IMG/VR virus record: IMGVR_UViG_3300046449_000037
Coordinates: 1-30,373 of that record
Strand: one strand, 5' to 3'
Origin: a virus
Length of the DNA stretch: 30,373 nucleotides
Positions within the stretch are counted from its first letter, which is position 1, and each line of letters opens with the position of its first letter. Positions 5,330 to 21,043 of the stretch are shown in pieces. The translations under genes and the position numbers were made by a program. The notes beneath the pieces were generated by a model. That model saw only the letters and a list, made by a program, of their open reading frames with translations. It was not told the DNA's origin and did no database searches.

Positions 5330-6223
5330 CTAATAATCCGCCCCAATCTCGCATGACTCACCACAACCGCTTCCTGTGTCCAAATCAACGTCATAACTTT
5401 GCATATTGAACCCAAGATCAAGTTGTTTTGAATCAGAATATGGTTCAAAATTCATGCTTTTTGCCATCTCTAAAATGTCAATTGATGATGCATGTCCCCG
5501 GAAAAATACGCGCTTTTGGTCTTCATTTCCATCAGATTGATTGGTGTAAGCATACGTTGCTTCCATTCTTTTGGGAAAATCAAAAATTGATGGATCATCT
5601 TTTGCCAAGGTCAAAAGCTTTCTCTTAGACTTCTTCCAGCACCAGACACAATTGCCGTAATGCTCACCCTTTAATTCTAAATCAAAGCCCCAAGATGCAC
5701 ATTCACGCTTCACATCTTCTTTTGTCCATCCAGCATCAACCAATGGATACATTAGAAACTGTTCAATTCTCTTGGGGCTGACTCGATCAATTTCATCTGA
5801 TCTGATGCCAATGGCTGTCCAATAATCGCCACGACTCCATCCCTTGTGATCTCTTAAATACGAATATAACACTTCAACCTTTAACCTTGAATTGCATTGC
5901 GGCATTGCTTGATTTGGAATGCCATATTTTTGAATCATTGCTTCAAATGGCTCTCCATACCTTGATGCAGTTTCATAATCCACAACCTTTGCACGCATTC
6001 CCTTGCCCTTCTCCGGGTTCACAATGCCCTCAACCCAAACAACGCCCCAATTAAATGCTTTGTCGCAGTCATGGATAAACTTCAATGTGTTCTCATGCTC
6101 ACATCCAGTGTTGGCAAAGGTGATGGCAATGTCATGCGTCTTGGAAAATTTATCAACGCATAATTTGGTCATTACGGCTGATGTTCGCCCACCACTAAAG
6201 CTGATTGCAAGTTTTGGTCTCAT
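5330..6223 (-). CDS. PAPS-reductase-family ATP pyrophosphatase with four cysteines
   Basis: This 297-aa protein carries the PP-loop SFSGGRTSA (residues 8-16) that binds ATP pyrophosphate in the adenine-nucleotide alpha-hydrolase fold. Further family signatures are FANTGCEHE (36-44), CNSRLKVE (110-117), AIGIRSDE (137-144) and NCVWCWKKSKR (191-201). Cys110, Cys175, Cys192 and Cys195 form a possible four-ligand set, as in iron-sulfur members of the superfamily such as DndC. Phage members are usually labelled PAPS reductase, but activity is rarely shown; they may serve sulfur transfer or nucleotide or DNA modification. The start overlaps the primase-helicase stop as ATGA. It is the last gene before the 273-base gap. 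A DpdA/TGT-like gene about 3 kb upstream in the same gene group makes a DNA-modification role attractive, but this is inference. Confidence 0.8.
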   Translation of the reverse strand: MRPKLAISFSGGRTSAVMTKLCVDKFSKTHDIAITFANTGCEHENTLKFIHDCDKAFNWGVVWVEGIVNPEKGKGMRAKVVDYETASRYGEPFEAMIQKYGIPNQAMPQCNSRLKVEVLYSYLRDHKGWSRGDYWTAIGIRSDEIDRVSPKRIEQFLMYPLVDAGWTKEDVKRECASWGFDLELKGEHYGNCVWCWKKSKRKLLTLAKDDPSIFDFPKRMEATYAYTNQSDGNEDQKRVFFRGHASSIDILEMAKSMNFEPYSDSKQLDLGFNMQSYDVDLDTGSGCGESCEIGADY

Positions 6224-8157
6224 CTGTAAAAAGCATTCTCCAGTTTGCCAGTTGAATTGAGCATTTTGACCACTTGGATGGCATCAATTTCTGCTCTGCG
6301 CCTATTGAATTGCGCCTTGCTAATGTCCAAGTTCAAGTCACCAAAAAACGCTGCCTGCTCTTCACCAGATGGAATAAGTGCCAGCACCTTGTCATCACCC
6401 TGCTTTTTCTTTGCGCCCGGCTTGGCTGCCCTGCTTGCGTCCAAATCTTCAGACAGCACCCAATGTGGATAATCCCACCGCGCAACAAATGATGGCGTTG
6501 ATTTGAATGAGCGCACCACACTGTCAACAATGTAGCAGCCCTCATTCTCATGGCTGATGATTGAGATTAAACCATCCATCTCACCGACAACAGATGATGC
6601 GCCCCGGAAGCGGTCAATGACTTCTTTGCCAGATTGCGAACCCTTGCCAAAGTGATGAATCAAGATTGGTGTGATTTCGTATTTGGCAATGATCTCATCC
6701 ATCCATGACCCAATTGCTTTCATGGCTGCGTTGTCATTCTCATCTTCTGCGCTGTTGAATTTGTAAAGACAGTCCAGAATGATCACATCAAACTGGCTCG
6801 CCTGTATTGTCTTCAGCACCCTGCTCAACTCTTTGGTGCTGCGCACATCATAATGCTGGCGCAGACTTAGAGTTGCCAGATTCTGTGGCACATCCCAATT
6901 GCAAGCAGATGCACAACGTTCGTTCAATTCCCATTCATGCAATTCAAAGTCAACATACAGAACGCGCTGTGGCTCTGGTGCTTCCCACTGCAAGAATGGT
7001 TGCCCGGCAGCCATGCAAGATGCCAATGACATTGCGAAGTGCGACTTGCCAGCCTTGGCAACGCCACCAATCAGCAGCTTTGATTTGGCGTAAAGCAGCC
7101 CATCAATAATCACATCTGGTCGCCTTGCTTTGGCTTCTTCCAATGACCTTGGCGCACCTTCATTGCCAAATCTGACATTGAATGTTTGCCGCTCAACATT
7201 GTTGGCAATCAATTCCTTCAAGCCTTCTGTTGTCCAGCCTTCTGCCACTGCGTCTGCTGCATCCCAGCCTTCTGCCTTGTCGCTTGGTGCATCAATCAGA
7301 TTGCCCTTTGTGATGCCTTGCAGTTGCTTTGCGGCTGTGCGCCCCGGCTCATCATTGTCTGCCCAAATTGACACTTTCCTGCCTTCCAGCACCGCCCAAT
7401 CTGATTGATTGATTGCCTTGCTGCCACCAGCCCATGACAGCACCACATGGTCTGGCAATTTGGATGCCAATGCATCTGCTGCTTTTTCGCCTTCAACAAT
7501 CACAACATCTGCGCCGGGCTTCTTGTTGAGCAGTTCGCCTTTGTAAAGCGGTCTTGGAGCATTGAATGCCTGCCACTTCCATGTGCATCTGTCGGTCTTC
7601 TTGTGGCGCATCCAACTGCACTGGCTGATTGTCTTGCTGCCATCTGGCAAATCCCACCGCATGATCACGCCAACTGGCCGCCCTGCTGCGTCTGCGTATT
7701 TATATACAATGTCGGCCTGGCCGTGTTCCCAATGCTCTGGTGCTGGTGCTTCTGGCTTGGTCAATGCATGCTCCCAATCTGATTCAGATGCCACTGGCTT
7801 GCGCTTGGTTGTCTTTGCCATGCGCACAATGTTGACTGCGCCTTGCAATTCACTGGCCGCTTCACCCTGTGTGAGATTGTTTGTTGCCGCATACAATGAT
7901 ATCAAGTCACCGCCCTTGTCTTCGGTCGCATGGTCATACCATTGCCCTGTGCGCAGGTTGATTGACATTGAACTGCCCATTGAACCATCAATGCCGCCAA
8001 TCCTGTATGAGCCACCCTTGACCTTGCCGCCGGGCAGCCACTGATGGCAATGCGCCTCAATGTTGCCCATCAGTTTGGCGTTGATCTCATCAAAATCAAT
8101 TCGCTGTGCTGTGTGTGTTGCTTCTTCGTCTTCGTTCGTCGCAATATATTTTGCCAT
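6220..8157 (-). CDS. Primase-helicase fusion (Toprim plus RepA/DnaB-like ATPase)
   Basis: This 645-aa protein should unwind and prime phage DNA. Residues 25-115 form an N-terminal domain of phage-primase type (YRIGG, WYDHATEDKGGDLI) without a visible zinc-finger cysteine set. The Toprim domain has VVIVEGEKAAD (218-228, catalytic Glu222) and WADNDEPGR (265-273, metal-binding Asp267 and Asp269). The ATPase domain has Walker A GGVAKAGKS (364-372), Walker B VIILD (458-462) and the RepA-like segment HHFGKGSQSGKE about 40 residues later. The leader is the AC-rich ATAACCCACAAAACT directly before ATG, shared with the preceding gene. The first ten residues (MAKYIATNED) nearly match those of the SSB-like protein at 13517-14011. 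The gene overlaps the PP-loop ATPase gene by ATGA. Assignment is strong from motifs and length. Confidence 0.92.
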   Translation of the reverse strand: MAKYIATNEDEEATHTAQRIDFDEINAKLMGNIEAHCHQWLPGGKVKGGSYRIGGIDGSMGSSMSINLRTGQWYDHATEDKGGDLISLYAATNNLTQGEAASELQGAVNIVRMAKTTKRKPVASESDWEHALTKPEAPAPEHWEHGQADIVYKYADAAGRPVGVIMRWDLPDGSKTISQCSWMRHKKTDRCTWKWQAFNAPRPLYKGELLNKKPGADVVIVEGEKAADALASKLPDHVVLSWAGGSKAINQSDWAVLEGRKVSIWADNDEPGRTAAKQLQGITKGNLIDAPSDKAEGWDAADAVAEGWTTEGLKELIANNVERQTFNVRFGNEGAPRSLEEAKARRPDVIIDGLLYAKSKLLIGGVAKAGKSHFAMSLASCMAAGQPFLQWEAPEPQRVLYVDFELHEWELNERCASACNWDVPQNLATLSLRQHYDVRSTKELSRVLKTIQASQFDVIILDCLYKFNSAEDENDNAAMKAIGSWMDEIIAKYEITPILIHHFGKGSQSGKEVIDRFRGASSVVGEMDGLISIISHENEGCYIVDSVVRSFKSTPSFVARWDYPHWVLSEDLDASRAAKPGAKKKQGDDKVLALIPSGEEQAAFFGDLNLDISKAQFNRRRAEIDAIQVVKMLNSTGKLENAFYR

Positions 8158-8172
8158 AGTTTTGTGGGTTAT
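8158..8172 (-). promoter_or_regulatory. AC-rich translation leader before primase-helicase
   Basis: The minus strand reads ATAACCCACAAAACT directly before the ATG at 8157. The stop codon of the upstream nuclease gene forms the TAA inside this motif. The same 15 bases occur before the gene starting at 8633, and ATAACCCACAAAA recurs before the gene at 12311. No Shine-Dalgarno sequence is present. Confidence 0.55.
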
Positions 8173-8633
8173 TTGAATTGATGGAGTTGTGTTTGTTCAA
8201 GGCAATAGCCTTTTCCATGACCTAAATCACGCAAATTTTCTTCCTTAATAAGCTCGGTTTTGTAAGCCCAGCCAATCAATGAAACTGTGTTTTGATCAAC
8301 AATCGCCAGAACATATCTGTCAACGTCTGGGTTGACCTTTAAGCTGGCAAGCAATTTGCCAGATTGATATGTGGTTGATTTGATGTCATACCTGTCACCA
8401 TTGATTGTGCCATCAGCAGAACCAGACCTTGGTTCAAGACCCAAATCAAAAAAGCAGTTGTATTTCTTGGCAAAAGCATATTCAGCAATAAAGCCTTGGA
8501 TGTCTGCCAACGAACCATCTTGTTTGCCAACTTTAATATCTTTGATGTTGTTGCCGCGCGCCACCAATGACCGCATGCTGCCAATGATTCTACAAACAGC
8601 CATTTCTGATGGTTTGAGTGTTATTTTTACCAT
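8169..8633 (-). CDS. Putative PD-(D/E)XK-type nuclease
   Basis: This 154-aa protein shows the pattern of a small PD-(D/E)XK nuclease: a helix with acidic Glu51 (GFIAEYAFAKKYN), then Asp74 in a GSADGT turn, then RYDIKST (81-87) with Asp83 and Lys85 as likely catalytic residues, then a strand segment ending RYVLAIVD. Phages use such enzymes for host-DNA degradation, recombination or concatemer processing. It lies directly upstream of the primase-helicase, 11 bases away, and shares its AC-rich leader. No DNA-binding appendage is visible. The fold assignment is from motif spacing only; a restriction-related or repair nuclease is equally possible. Confidence 0.65.
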   Translation of the reverse strand: MVKITLKPSEMAVCRIIGSMRSLVARGNNIKDIKVGKQDGSLADIQGFIAEYAFAKKYNCFFDLGLEPRSGSADGTINGDRYDIKSTTYQSGKLLASLKVNPDVDRYVLAIVDQNTVSLIGWAYKTELIKEENLRDLGHGKGYCLEQTQLHQFK

Positions 8634-8648
8634 AGTTTTGTGGGTTAT
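8634..8648 (-). promoter_or_regulatory. AC-rich translation leader before the nuclease gene
   Basis: The minus strand reads ATAACCCACAAAACT directly before the ATG at 8633, and the TAA inside it is the stop of the 64-aa gene. Including the ATGG that follows, 19 bases match the leader at 8157 exactly. Confidence 0.55.
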
Positions 8649-8839
8649 GTGTTCTCTTCTTCTTCTGGTTGTTGTTGTTCAATCAAGCCAAGTCTTTCCA
8701 TGTGTGGGAATTTCTTTGCCCGGCATTCATCAAGCAGCTTTGCGGTCTTTCTGTATTTCTCAAAGTCTGGCATGGTCTTGTCTTCAATGCGCTTGGCATA
8801 TCGCATCAAGCTTGCAATCTGTTCGTATTCGCTGCCCAT
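8645..8839 (-). CDS. Small helical protein, 64 aa
   Basis: This 64-aa frame encodes a highly charged, probably all-helical protein (QIASLMRYAKRIEDKTMPDF near the N-terminus, KYRKTAKLLDECRAKKF in the middle) ending in a Gln/Glu-rich tail. I do not recognise it. The gene starts three bases after the DpdA-like stop (TAA-ATT-ATG, a junction also seen between the two membrane-protein genes near 17.77 kb) and its own stop supplies the TAA of the AC-rich leader of the nuclease gene. Tight packing on both sides supports it being real. Confidence 0.65.
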   Translation of the reverse strand: MGSEYEQIASLMRYAKRIEDKTMPDFEKYRKTAKLLDECRAKKFPHMERLGLIEQQQPEEEENT

Positions 8840-8842
8840 AAT

Positions 8843-9553
8843 TTATGCAAATGATATTTGGTTTTTATTATTTCGGTTTCTGCTGCCTTTACATGTATGA
8901 TCAGACAACCAATGCGTTGATGGAATTGCTTTTTGGCGCGCCCATTCTTCCAATCCCCTTGTTTGTTTTTTGTCGCCCCGATTCCATCCAGTGCCGTCAC
9001 ATGACTCAACGCCCATTGCTTCCAATTCATAAAGTCTGGTTGGCGAATTGCACCGCAAAACGTGAACCCTTGGAAATGATCTTGCCCACATTTCAACTGT
9101 TTCCCATTTCCATTCAGTAGTGCCACCAACTGCAATGACTTCTGGCTTTGGATTTAGTGATCTTACATCATCACGCGTCATGCCATCTTGAACTGCAACT
9201 GCCAGTGGAATTTTGCATGATTCCACAATTTTGGCGTATTTATTCCACTGCGCAATGGTTGCTTCACCATTGCCAATGACATCTGGCACAATTGCCCACT
9301 TTGCTTGTTGTTCTTGGCATTGCGACCAAACCAAAAGACGCTTCCAATCTTCTTCTAATTTGACCCATTTTTCAGTGTCAAAAGTGTTTTCCCTCATGTC
9401 CCAGCAACTGTAAGCACCATTGTCCAAAGCATATGGAAACCAAGGAAAAATTTGGCGTTCTTGAGTTGGCGAAAACAAGTGACCAATGCGCCCGGTTTCA
9501 CGCGCTAGCGAATGGAAAAACCACCCTTGGGAATTTGCTGGCATTACTAACAT
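8843..9553 (-). CDS. DpdA/TGT-like DNA base-exchange (7-deazaguanine) candidate
   Basis: This 236-aa protein resembles the tRNA-guanine transglycosylase superfamily, and specifically short phage DpdA-like proteins, which swap guanine in DNA for a 7-deazaguanine. Readable landmarks are WFPYALDNGAYSCW (38-51, Asp44 at the place of the TGT TDSGG aspartate), AIVPDVIGN (87-95), VAVQDGM (119-125), AVGGTTEWKW (141-150, matching the TGT GG substrate loop) and SCDGTGW (184-190, Asp186 as possible nucleophile). It lacks the TGT zinc-binding cysteine set. I see no FolE, QueD, QueE or QueC genes, so a precursor would have to come from the host. The gene lies between the RuvC-like and 64-aa genes in the replication group. 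Start could be Met1 (9553) or Met4. Family is probable; DNA modification is inferred. Confidence 0.7.
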   Translation of the reverse strand: MLVMPANSQGWFFHSLARETGRIGHLFSPTQERQIFPWFPYALDNGAYSCWDMRENTFDTEKWVKLEEDWKRLLVWSQCQEQQAKWAIVPDVIGNGEATIAQWNKYAKIVESCKIPLAVAVQDGMTRDDVRSLNPKPEVIAVGGTTEWKWETVEMWARSFPRVHVLRCNSPTRLYELEAMGVESCDGTGWNRGDKKQTRGLEEWARQKAIPSTHWLSDHTCKGSRNRNNKNQISFA

Positions 9554-9597: not shown

Positions 9598-10107
9598 TTA
9601 GATGTTTTCCCTTCTGCCATATTCTGCAAGCAATGCGGCATCAATCATGCCATCATGCGGCTTGGTGCATCGCTCAGACTTCAGCCATGTTTGGGTTGGA
9701 AATATCTGCTTGGCAACATTCAATGCAGCAGCCTTGGTGTTGAACTTTTGACCTTTGGGCATCTTTGGTTTGCTCCAAAATACCTTCTGCCATTTTTGAC
9801 TCATCACCACATGATATTTCAGTTGATAAGCTGCCAGCAATGTTTCAACCGCCGCAAACGAATAAGTCATTGACCGCAAGCCTGCTGCGCTTGGTGCATG
9901 TGCGCCCGGATTCTCAACAATGAATGTGTATTGCTCTGGATGCCTGCCAATCTCTTTGATCATGGCAGCCAAGCCACACAAATCAATCTTGCGCCCTTTG
10001 CCGCTTGGCACTGTTGGCATGACTGATGCCTGCATCAGATTGCCTTGCCAGTTAATCATTGTGATGCCGCCATCAAGACCGCAATCAATTCCAATGTAAT
10101 ATTTCAA
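9598..10107 (-). CDS. RuvC-like Holliday-junction resolvase
   Basis: This 169-aa protein has the RNase H-like RuvC signature: IGIDCGLDGGI with Asp8, FIVENP with Glu65, and KPHDGMIDAALLAEYG at the C-terminus with His151, Asp152 and Asp156. These acidic residues bind the metals that cut four-way junctions symmetrically. In phages this enzyme resolves recombination intermediates and branched concatemers before packaging. Length matches the family (about 150-175 aa). The ATG overlaps the stop of the upstream 76-aa gene (ATGA, 10104-10107). The presence of a RecT-like annealing candidate and SSB-like protein in the same gene group suggests recombination-dependent replication. Confidence 0.88.
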   Translation of the reverse strand: MKYYIGIDCGLDGGITMINWQGNLMQASVMPTVPSGKGRKIDLCGLAAMIKEIGRHPEQYTFIVENPGAHAPSAAGLRSMTYSFAAVETLLAAYQLKYHVVMSQKWQKVFWSKPKMPKGQKFNTKAAALNVAKQIFPTQTWLKSERCTKPHDGMIDAALLAEYGRRENI

Positions 10108-18296: not shown

Positions 18297-19076
18297 TTAT
18301 TTTCTCCAAAACTCAGTGCCGTTGTATTGTTTGCAAAGATCAACTCCTAGCACTTGAGCCGAGTCATCTTTGATTGGTTTCACGTCCTTGCGGATCGTGT
18401 GAAGATTCATGCCATGAACGCTATCGTCTTCATTGGTATATTGCTCGACGCTAGTAAAGTCATGCTCAAAATTTGGTAGCTCAAGAAACTTGTAAATGTC
18501 CTCAAGTGTTTCCTTTGGGTTGTGTGTTAAATCATCGAACTCTACTAAGCAGAGACGGTCACCTAAGCCACGCATCATTGCGTCCTTGAGTCGGTTGTAA
18601 GCCAGTCCAAGAACTTGCTCTGCACCGAGTAAATGCTCTGCACGTCCCTGTATGGTCTGTGCTTGAAAGTAGTCGCCTTGATCCTTTGCTTGTGTTTTTC
18701 GGTGCAGCTTCTCAAAGCTAGAAAGAATCTGAGGGATGCCACGAACCGGGACGATAATCTTGACCTTACGATCCAGTGCAAACTCAGCCAGCTCGATCAG
18801 TGATAACCACCCACGCCCCTTGTCGATTACAACTGGACGATCCGTATTGTGATACGCATTAATCGTAGCATTAAGAACGGGTTGAAGGTTGTTAGCTAGA
18901 GACTTGGCAGCCTTGTGTTCCACCCAATCGCCCCACGCATTGCGCAGGACAAACAAAGCTTCGTGACAAGCACTTGTCGGAGTGCTGTGCATCTCTGGAT
19001 TCTGTGCAAGAATATTGCAGAGCAGAGTTGAACCGCTGCGAGGCAGTCCACTAATCATATGGATGGTTTTACTCAT
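18297..19076 (-). CDS. PAPS-dependent sulfotransferase family protein
   Basis: This 259-aa protein has the sulfotransferase signatures: the 5'-phosphosulfate loop GLPRSGST (10-17), Lys86 in VVIDKGRGW, and the 3'-phosphate-binding segment VPVRGIPQILSSF (109-121) with Arg112 and Ser119/120. Such enzymes move a sulfo group from PAPS to a hydroxyl or amine on a sugar, peptide or small molecule. The gene starts within the stop of the fibre gene (TAATG), so it is coupled to host-recognition genes; it might modify the fibre, a receptor or the cell surface. It lies in a region of different base composition, suggesting transfer. The family is confident; the substrate is unknown. Confidence 0.88.
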   Translation of the reverse strand: MSKTIHMISGLPRSGSTLLCNILAQNPEMHSTPTSACHEALFVLRNAWGDWVEHKAAKSLANNLQPVLNATINAYHNTDRPVVIDKGRGWLSLIELAEFALDRKVKIIVPVRGIPQILSSFEKLHRKTQAKDQGDYFQAQTIQGRAEHLLGAEQVLGLAYNRLKDAMMRGLGDRLCLVEFDDLTHNPKETLEDIYKFLELPNFEHDFTSVEQYTNEDDSVHGMNLHTIRKDVKPIKDDSAQVLGVDLCKQYNGTEFWRK

Positions 19077-21043
19077 TAAGAAGCTGTGCCTAGTGAAAGA
19101 GTTGTAACTGTCCCGCCAATGTTTAGATCAATTAGAATCTCGTTACCATTGCGACGAAATGCGATGCCATTACGAATCACTGTGTTGTCGGCTTCGCTGC
19201 CTTTAGTTGCTCCACCATCGCCGTATGCTGTCGCACGATTCTGAATAGTTTGAGCAACCATACCAGTGCCGTGAACTCGGATTGCTCCTGCTCTTGTGGT
19301 TGATCCAGACCAATAGCCGATTTCAGCGGTGTTATTGACTGTTGTTTTTGCACGGAAGCCGATAGCTGCGACATTGCTACCACTGGCTGTGGCGGTGCGG
19401 CCAATGGCTATGGAGAAGCTGCCACTGGCTTCTGCATCGTTGCCGATTGCTGTGGATGTAAGCCCCGAGGCTTCTGCGGCGTAACCCACTGCTGTGGAGT
19501 AGCTACCACTGGCTGTAGCGGTGCGACCGATAGCTGTAGCATACCCGTAGTAACCACTGGCCGTGGCGCCGTAACCGATAGCTGTACCATACCCGTAGTA
19601 ACCGCTGGCCGTGGTGCGGTTGCCGATGGCTACGGAGTTAGGGCCACTAGCAACCTTCGCGACGTTATCACGACTCGCTTGAATATTAATCGCATTTGAC
19701 CCGCGACCGTCGCCGCCAAGATCACCTGCACTGAATGCTCCGTTTGCATCTGTGCGAACTGATTTTGCATTGTTCGCTGTAATGTCACTTGCTTGTGCAG
19801 ATGTAATTCCCACCTTAGCATTGTTGGTTGTAATGTCACTTGCTTGTGCAGATGTAATTCCAACCTTGGCCGTGTTAGCTGTAATGTCACTTGCTTGAGC
19901 AGATGTAATTCCAACCTTGGCCGTGTTAGCTGTAATGTCACTTGCTTGAGCTGGTGTGATTCCCACCTTGGCATTGTTAGCTGTAATATCACTTGCTTGA
20001 GCTGGTGTGATTCCCACCTTAGCATTGTTGGTTGTAATGTCAGATGCTTGTGTTGGTGTGATTCCAACCTTGGCATTGTTGGTTGTAATGTCACTTGCTT
20101 GTGTTGGTGTGATTCCAACCTTGGCATTGTTGGTTGTAATGTCACTTGCTTGTGTTGTTGTAAAGCTTGCATCAGTTGCGTCTAATATTGAGCTGTGTGC
20201 TTGCACATCTTCACCCACCACCAAACTTAAATCTTCACGCCAGTTTGCCGGATTGAAGCAACCATTGGTGCTTGGATCTTCGGCAAAATCGCAAAGATTG
20301 GATGGCAATGTGTGCGCTGGAAAACTATTTGGTGCTGCCACTGATGGCAGAATGGAAATTGGAACTTGGCAAACAACATCTGTGCCAACTTTGATTTCAA
20401 AAAAGGCATCTGCGCCTTCTGCAATCAATTCCTGCACTCTGGCAGTGTTGGCATTCAGTTGACCCGTCCAAGTGCTGCCAGCAACTGCCCATGTCTCAGA
20501 AAAGATTGCTGGTTGTTGGCTAATTTCAATGACTTGCTGCGCCCGGATTGTTGGCGAACCAACAACGCTGGTTGCTGCTGTCACTTCAGATTCTGGTGCA
20601 AGGTCAAGGCTTTGCCCAGCAATGTCAACGCGCGCACCAACATCATTAAAAATTACTCTGTAAGAACCATTGGCAAGCTTTGAAACTGAAACCTTTGATC
20701 CATAAGCACCAGATCCACCATTAAGAGCATTTAAAGCACCCGCCACGGCTTCGGCTGATGCGTTCCAACTAAGGTTGCCAGTTGATTGAGTGCCTGCGTT
20801 CAGCTTGAATGTGCCAGATGTGGCAGCTTTGCCCTTGGCAGATATTGCAACCGCAACATCAACTGCTGTGCCGCTCCGGGCATCATACGCGCCATTGGAT
20901 TTGACCAGATGCAAAACAACATCCACAACTTCACCTTCAACCATTTGCGGCAATCGCACAACCTGTGTTGGTCGGTTTATGTTCGCAACCGCATTGGCGG
21001 TTAAATCTTTTAAATCTGTGTTAATGTAAACGCTTGTTGCCAT
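19076..21043 (-). CDS. Tail fibre with 17-residue repeats and YadA-like head
   Basis: This 655-aa protein is a probable trimeric receptor-binding fibre. The N-terminal part (1-270) is beta-rich and likely attaches to the tail; it has no collagen repeat. It is followed by eight copies of a 17-residue unit (QASDITxNxAKVGITxx), then by a YadA-like head in which ASG-S/Y-x-x-AIG-type repeats (about 465-565) would form a left-handed beta roll, and a C-terminal segment ending TLSLGTAS. The same kind of repeat units occurs in other phage fibres I recall. The stop shares a base with the sulfotransferase start. The C-terminal third is rich in CGAT/ATCG while the N-terminal third is not, which suggests a mosaic. 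Fibre is well supported; the receptor is unknown. Confidence 0.88.
   Translation of the reverse strand: MATSVYINTDLKDLTANAVANINRPTQVVRLPQMVEGEVVDVVLHLVKSNGAYDARSGTAVDVAVAISAKGKAATSGTFKLNAGTQSTGNLSWNASAEAVAGALNALNGGSGAYGSKVSVSKLANGSYRVIFNDVGARVDIAGQSLDLAPESEVTAATSVVGSPTIRAQQVIEISQQPAIFSETWAVAGSTWTGQLNANTARVQELIAEGADAFFEIKVGTDVVCQVPISILPSVAAPNSFPAHTLPSNLCDFAEDPSTNGCFNPANWREDLSLVVGEDVQAHSSILDATDASFTTTQASDITTNNAKVGITPTQASDITTNNAKVGITPTQASDITTNNAKVGITPAQASDITANNAKVGITPAQASDITANTAKVGITSAQASDITANTAKVGITSAQASDITTNNAKVGITSAQASDITANNAKSVRTDANGAFSAGDLGGDGRGSNAINIQASRDNVAKVASGPNSVAIGNRTTASGYYGYGTAIGYGATASGYYGYATAIGRTATASGSYSTAVGYAAEASGLTSTAIGNDAEASGSFSIAIGRTATASGSNVAAIGFRAKTTVNNTAEIGYWSGSTTRAGAIRVHGTGMVAQTIQNRATAYGDGGATKGSEADNTVIRNGIAFRRNGNEILIDLNIGGTVTTLSLGTAS
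19345..19645 (-). repeat. YadA-type head repeats in the fibre gene
   Basis: The translation here reads repeated units of about 13-15 residues such as YYGYGTAIGYGATASG, YSTAVGYAAEASG and FSIAIGRTATASG. These are characteristic of YadA-like head domains that fold as trimeric beta rolls. Individual units are similar in sequence at both protein and DNA level, so copy number could change by recombination. Confidence 0.75.
19764..20155 (-). repeat. Eight tandem 51-bp repeats in the fibre gene
   Basis: The core AATGTCACTT (two variants AATATCACTT and AATGTCAGAT) occurs at 19781, 19832, 19883, 19934, 19985, 20036, 20087 and 20138, always 51 bases apart. Each unit encodes 17 residues, QASDITxNxAKVGITxx, so the reading frame is preserved when units are gained or lost. 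The first three protein copies are nearly identical and later ones diverge. Confidence 0.93.

Follow-up and report, generated by a model that had tools for sequence, protein, structure and literature searches.

Whether a transglycosylase-like gene and a PP-loop gene from the same phage gene cluster act together in DNA modification is the question raised by IMG/VR virus record IMGVR_UViG_3300046449_000037. Positions 1 to 30,373 of this record, hereafter the window (the whole stretch of 30,373 nucleotides that was analysed), encode a 236-amino-acid (aa) protein resembling tRNA-guanine transglycosylases (TGTs) and the 7-deazaguanine transglycosylase DpdA (8843..9553, minus strand; hereafter the small TGT) and a 297-aa PP-loop protein resembling PAPS reductases (5330..6223, minus strand). 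Both open reading frames (ORFs) had been pointed out in a preliminary description of the sequence, were recovered at these positions, and had been proposed to constitute a minimal or new DNA hypermodification module. The analysis favours another explanation, to which a probability of about 0.68 was assigned: the small TGT would place a host-derived 7-deazaguanine in phage DNA as camouflage against restriction, and the PP-loop gene would be independent of it.

Family, conserved residues and predicted fold of the small TGT

No match to the 236-aa protein was obtained in NCBIfam or, at E-values up to 1, in Pfam. In PHROGs, it matched phrog_15826 (E 8e-26), a family labelled 'unknown function', and weakly phrog_887, labelled queuine tRNA-ribosyltransferase. 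All aligned relatives (70/70) likewise matched phrog_15826, members of which carry the label 'DpdA-like' in some actinophages. The family was found on at least 500 uncultivated viral contigs and in only 24 of the 50,697 phage records searched; the nearest relatives (57–59% identity) came from phages otherwise unlike the window phage.

Residues D44, P90, D91, T99, Q122, G143, G144, H164, R167, D186 and G187 were invariant in the 70 sequences, while N45, G46, K149 and N169 were conserved in at least 90%. The landmarks LDNGAY, VPD, VGGTTEWKW and SCDGTGW, on which the preliminary description had relied, are all present and not due to chance, because they coincide with invariant or near-invariant columns of this alignment. 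Equivalence to TGT residues was derived from motif order and alignment with DpdA, not from superposed coordinates. Briefly, D44-N45-G46 (9416..9424; this and the following positions on the minus strand) would correspond to the base-binding D102 of Zymomonas mobilis TGT (DSGAF in phage DpdA), P90-D91 (VPDVIG, 9281..9286) to TGT D156 (GIGD motif of DpdA), Q122 (VQDG, 9188..9190) to TGT Q203, G143-G144 (VGGTTEWKW, 9122..9127) to TGT G229-G230 (aligned with IGGMV of DpdA) and D186-G187 (SCDGTGW, 8993..8998), which contains the expected catalytic nucleophile, to TGT D280 (CDSSSW in DpdA). H164 (VHVLRCNSP, 9062..9064) belongs to a subfamily signature, H-x2-R-x-N. The Asp/Asp/Gln/Gly-Gly/Asp active-site set (D44, D91, Q122, G143-G144, D186) was present in full and in TGT order. 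No invariant or near-invariant Cys was found in the 70 members, so that the Cys3-His zinc site of tRNA TGTs has no counterpart in the family. The motifs were also collinear with those of the phage DpdA proteins of phiG7, R29Z and Sonali, and comparison of the small TGT with phage DpdA by hhalign gave an E-value of 7e-7 and a probability of 91.9%, over residues 35–146 only. Gln122 was present in all members, at the place aligned with the His of 9g-type DpdA (CFH in phiG7 DpdA, which we infer to be H196 of the literature).

An AlphaFold model built on the alignment of 70 relatives reached a predicted local distance difference test score (pLDDT) of 93.1 and a predicted template modelling score (pTM) of 0.89, compared with a pLDDT of only 44 from the single sequence. 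TGTs were the best 14 matches of the model in the Protein Data Bank (PDB) as searched with Foldseek, and made up all 50 matches listed by VIA-align, the best being Zymomonas TGT (Z 13.2, root-mean-square deviation 3.6, 202 residues aligned). In the latter comparison, model residues 1–210 covered TGT residues 40–363, and the zinc domain and other TGT extensions are therefore absent from the small TGT. A search of a viral structure library with the model returned queuine tRNA-ribosyltransferases. No TGT was retrieved from the PDB by sequence, whether the single protein or a profile served as query. The evidence for kinship with TGTs therefore comes from the fold, the motifs shared with DpdA and the gene context. 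As modelled, the 236-aa protein is a predicted minimal TGT barrel and a member of the TGT superfamily in a subfamily of its own.

Linked genes and precursor supply

For the analysis of gene context, 180 small-TGT loci were clustered at 75% identity, yielding 96 clusters, and 79 loci around a RuvC-like resolvase gene served as control. A gene for a Vut_1 (YhhQ-type) transporter was located within 1 kb of the small TGT in 47 of the 96 clusters and preQ0-synthesis genes within 3 kb in 16; one or the other was present in 62/96 clusters, as opposed to 0/79 control loci. In a tree of the family, the strongly supported branches alone required at least nine changes of the Que label and at least six of the Vut label, and linkage to Que and Vut genes must therefore have arisen repeatedly and independently.

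In L001–L004 and L026 (L-numbers are labels of the viral loci or contigs compared), the small TGT is followed by overlapping genes for QueC, QueD, QueE and FolE2 (QueE was not detected in L004), an assignment checked with Pfam; no DpdA was detected on these short contigs. Other arrangements of QueC, QueD, QueE and FolE genes adjoin the small TGT in L082–L088, L146, L158, L160, L169, L178, L179 and L208, and in L040 it likewise overlaps or abuts one or more preQ0-synthesis genes. In most actinophage-type members, the transporter gene, verified with Pfam, is adjacent, usually just upstream and overlapping. The closest relatives from unrelated viruses are located within preQ0-synthesis operons, and more remote ones right next to the transporter gene. 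Two-gene cassettes of Vut_1/YhhQ and small TGT were recorded in L143–L221 (e.g. L148 9475–10636 and L172 9523–10717), L014, L018 and L019. YhhQ transports preQ0 (reference in PMC6884629), and in a survey from 2019 it was not correlated with any phage group (PMC6884629). Among the open-licence papers searched, the linkage of YhhQ to the small TGT seems not to have been reported before; it is a testable addition to that survey, and the cassette suggests a simple form of salvage, which would spare a phage the synthesis of the base that it places in its DNA. Linkage to preQ0-synthesis and YhhQ-type transporter genes thus provides strong circumstantial evidence that the small-TGT family uses a 7-deazaguanine. 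Together with the fold and the DpdA-collinear motifs, it backs the original TGT/DpdA reading of the 236-aa protein and gives a probable function to phrog_15826.

The genome of the window phage is complete and circular (30,246 bp, with a 127-bp repeat at both ends of the window), and gene absences therefore count. Searches of the complete genome with hidden Markov models (HMMs) found no QueC, QueD, QueE, FolE, FolE2, QueF, Vut_1/YhhQ or second DpdA, in agreement with the initial failure to see FolE, QueD, QueE or QueC, and Pfam searches found neither Vut_1 nor PTPS. A DpdA-type gene without synthesis genes is already known and not new: such phages form the largest known group with DpdA, with 76 listed (PMC6884629). 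Two phages of this group, 7-11 of Salmonella and MED16 of Pantoea, contain dADG in their DNA, whereas Orion, whose host lacks the pathway, has none (PMC6884629, PMC8306585). Because the window has no synthesis or transporter genes and because of the precedent set by 7-11, MED16 and Orion, supply by the host is the simplest explanation, and the window phage presumably takes its 7-deazaguanine precursor from there. Of the two options offered by the preliminary description, use of host preQ0/preQ1 is thus the likelier one.

Proposed mechanism and alternatives

In the small TGT, the barrel and the acidic and Gln active-site residues of TGTs are retained, and the zinc domain of the tRNA enzymes is missing; most likely, it would exchange guanine in the phage's own DNA for preQ0 or a closely related 7-deazaguanine base. 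While D44, D91, Q122 and the Gly-Gly loop would hold the base, D186 would, by analogy with TGT, attack C1' of deoxyguanosine at the glycosidic bond, giving a covalent nucleic-acid intermediate from which guanine would be released and into which 7-deazaguanine would enter. The base would be drawn from the host queuosine pathway, because the complete genome contains neither a preQ0-synthesis gene nor a YhhQ-type transporter gene, and the outcome would be phage DNA camouflaged from restriction. Most likely, the small TGT is a minimal variant of phage 7-deazaguanine insertion with a family-wide transporter link. Several points weigh against this explanation. In the open-licence literature searched, there is no subfamily member whose activity was tested; comparison of the family profile with one E. 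coli TGT sequence gave no significant match; and in the subclade of the window, neither a synthesis nor a transporter gene is linked to the small TGT within 5 kb in 13 of 15 clusters, though their contigs are in many cases short. In addition, Sonali (L012/L142), phiG7 (L015), R29Z (L017) and L158 carry a full-length DpdA along with the small TGT, which may therefore have another target.

An enzyme acting on host or phage tRNA, which would adjust translation through a change of the wobble base, would account equally well for the linkage to Que and YhhQ genes, which fits a supply of queuosine for tRNA, and TGTs originate as tRNA enzymes; however, the small TGT lacks the zinc domain, most of the extra length and any invariant Cys of its tRNA-modifying counterparts, the window phage has no tRNA genes and its motif relatives, the DpdA proteins, act on DNA (PMC6884629), which makes this alternative unlikely. 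It is hardly probable that the small TGT works as the partner of another subunit, or that it has degenerated into a TGT-fold protein without catalysis, serving for instance as a sensor or to inhibit a host enzyme. Eukaryotic TGT consists of a catalytic and a non-catalytic subunit, a precedent for such pairing, and the co-occurrence of full DpdA in the four phages named above points the same way; but neither the Gln nor any of the three active-site Asp positions varies among the 70 members, and several preQ0 operons contain the small TGT with no DpdA detected nearby.

A joint pathway, in which the PP-loop enzyme would adenylate the 7-deazaguanine, before or after its insertion, and convert it (for example by thiolation or amidation) into a new DNA base, would have to accommodate the distribution of the two genes. 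In the sister contig L024 (98% identity in the major capsid protein and 94% in the portal protein), the TGT is kept (91%), whereas the PP-loop and 154-aa genes of the window are absent and a ParB-like gene lies near the place of the former. The TGT is at another place in L021, a close relative, and about 18 further close relatives have none between the resolvase gene and the gene that follows, where the window has its own. Conversely, of 32 loci with a PP-loop gene of the window's family, 30 have no TGT on the same contig; the exceptions are L108 and L109, where the two genes overlap. L090 and the window share a PP-loop gene at 96% identity, with only 50% identity between their terminases, and in the relative P8625 a distant PP-loop gene occurs without any TGT. 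In favour of a joint pathway, PP-loop genes adjoin or overlap the small TGT in L108/L109, ReqiPine5, L156, L185, L307 and L062, a PP-loop gene lies within 5 kb of the small TGT in 8/96 clusters but in 0/79 control loci (p 0.009, a small, nominally significant enrichment calculated with phage kinship ignored), and the C110, C192-x2-C195 and C287-x3-C291 pattern would fit an Fe-S or sulfur-handling PP-loop enzyme; however, the adjoining PP-loop genes come from several unrelated families. It is very unlikely that such a pathway exists, and just as improbable that it was assembled several times (in the window, L108/L109, ReqiPine5, L156, L185 and L307) on a host or imported precursor. A joint module is not supported, because L024 keeps its TGT without the PP-loop gene and 30/32 PP-loop loci are without TGT; the earlier suggestion that the ATPase supplies a different chemistry is unsupported on the same evidence and on the gene shared with L090. 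The claim of a new hypermodification module is thereby removed for the window phage. The PP-loop gene is accessory and independent, and probably stands outside the small-TGT system.

The PP-loop protein, neighbouring genes and comparison with known systems

The 297-aa PP-loop protein matched PF01507 with 33.8 bits, above the cut-off of 22.5, and phrog_424 (E 1e-52); its family is common, being represented in 506 phage records. Its best match among defence profiles was SspD (4e-10), and a match in the PDB was PptA (21fy). Identity with QueC was rejected, the match being to PF01507 and not to PF06508. The SGG of the PP-loop motif was invariant among its relatives, as were C110, C192, C195, C287 and C291 in 33 sequences, with C53 conserved in 32/33. 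The four cysteines first singled out thus hold for Cys110, Cys192 and Cys195; Cys175, conserved in only 15/33 relatives, was rejected as a cluster ligand, and C287 and C291 had been missed. The pattern suggests that the protein may have an Fe-S or redox role. No recurrent partner was found among the neighbours of the family (14 loci and three named phages), and open-licence literature on PptA, on phage PAPS reductases as anti-defence factors and on DNA thiolation by PP-loop proteins contained nothing on this family. The PP-loop gene of the window is an accessory acquired independently, with a function that is probably related to sulfur or adenylation. L039, L051, L054 and L062 were rejected as further cases of small TGT with the window's PP-loop family, their PP-loop proteins being from another family. 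Genes for a transporter, the small TGT and a PAPS-reductase-like protein lie side by side in ReqiPine5 (L153, 9465–11626), L156 (3837–6004), L185 (8586–10651) and L307, possibly a three-gene variant. PptA-like PP-loop genes (FSCGA-SAV motif) were seen in two relatives of the window phage, L226 (4582–4903) and L314 (P8625, 28360–29133), in one case directly after the primase-helicase gene, as is the window's own PP-loop gene.

All main genes of the window phage, which is marine, point leftward. Its closest named relative is Verrucomicrobia phage P8625 (terminase 63.5% identical), which infects Puniceicoccales sp. IMCC8625 and shares most of the structural and recombination genes; given this kinship, the host is plausibly a marine verrucomicrobium. 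The small TGT gene stands between those for a RuvC-like Holliday junction resolvase (9598..10107) and a 64-aa ORF conserved in sister phages (8645..8839). This ORF, a 154-aa ORF (8169..8633) and a primase-helicase gene (6220..8157), which shares an ATGA overlap with the PP-loop gene (all on the minus strand), fill the 2.6 kb between the TGT and PP-loop genes. The notion of one group therefore stands as regards the common leftward early-gene cluster but not as regards the two genes, which are 2.6 kb apart and independently gained and lost in relatives. The 154-aa protein (phrog_18407, unknown function) is a probable PD-(D/E)XK-type nuclease, judging from a D-x-K-S-T motif. Its gene is missing from most sister phages, lies between the same genes in the sister L232, and is also found near a TGT in L004 and L040 and near a PP-loop gene in L101/L102. 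A ParB-like gene occupies the place between Arc-like repressor and small terminase genes in the sisters L024 (3363–3968), L230, L231, L235, L237 and L239. Elsewhere in the window, an adhesin-like protein containing tandem repeats that are almost identical to each other (ASDITTNNAKVGITP...; 19076–21043, minus strand) is encoded by a gene overlapping that for a sulfotransferase-like protein (18297–19076, minus strand; PRSGSTLL motif; phrog_27463, unknown function), which with the PAPS-reductase-like gene makes two possibly sulfur-linked genes.

Among known systems, the PP-loop protein resembles the phrog_424 family (NinC-like; SspD; PptA 21fy) in its SGGxxS, CT-x2-LK and GNC-x2-CxKK motifs, and differs from other PAPS-reductase-like PP-loop types in the invariant C-terminal C-x3-C of its family. 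Unlike in Dnd/Ssp systems, no partner (DndA/D/E, SspA/B/C) was recognised in general scans of the window proteins, which did not include one-by-one searches.

With phage DpdA of the 9g/CAjan/Seuratvirus type, the small TGT shares the order of the DSGAF, GIGD, IGG and CDSSS motifs, occurrence with preQ0 genes and a precursor from phage or host. It is shorter (about 205–236 aa, compared with about 300 aa), has the Gln of TGT instead of His as well as the H-x2-R-x-N signature, is often paired with a YhhQ-type gene and has no close sequence match to this type. In L158, both enzymes are encoded inside one preQ0 operon, and in the Seuratvirus records phiG7 (L015, 8001–8530) and SHIN8, two ORFs that overlap each encode a part of the small TGT, through decay, frameshifting or sequencing error. 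DpdA2 of the Vibrio phage nt-1/KVP40 type likewise lacks the DpdA His and serves preQ0-encoding phages; however, the KVP40 candidate (one sequence of 459 aa, taken as DpdA2 because it is encoded between FolE and QueF) gave a profile probability of 3%, and only a VHxxxVxSxxRL stretch lines up. Bacterial and eukaryotic tRNA TGTs (PF01702) have the same barrel and active-site motifs in the expected order, but are much longer, match Pfam and possess the zinc site. The small TGT is placed in a subfamily apart from 9g-type DpdA and probably also from DpdA2. It belongs to the same family as the 'DpdA-like tRNA-guanine transglycosylase' of SEA-PHAGES (Sonali gp81, Ksquared gp54, Aoka gp40 and ReqiPine5 gp03), but unlike these actinophage members of phrog_15826, it has no adjacent Vut_1 gene and falls into a separate subclade.

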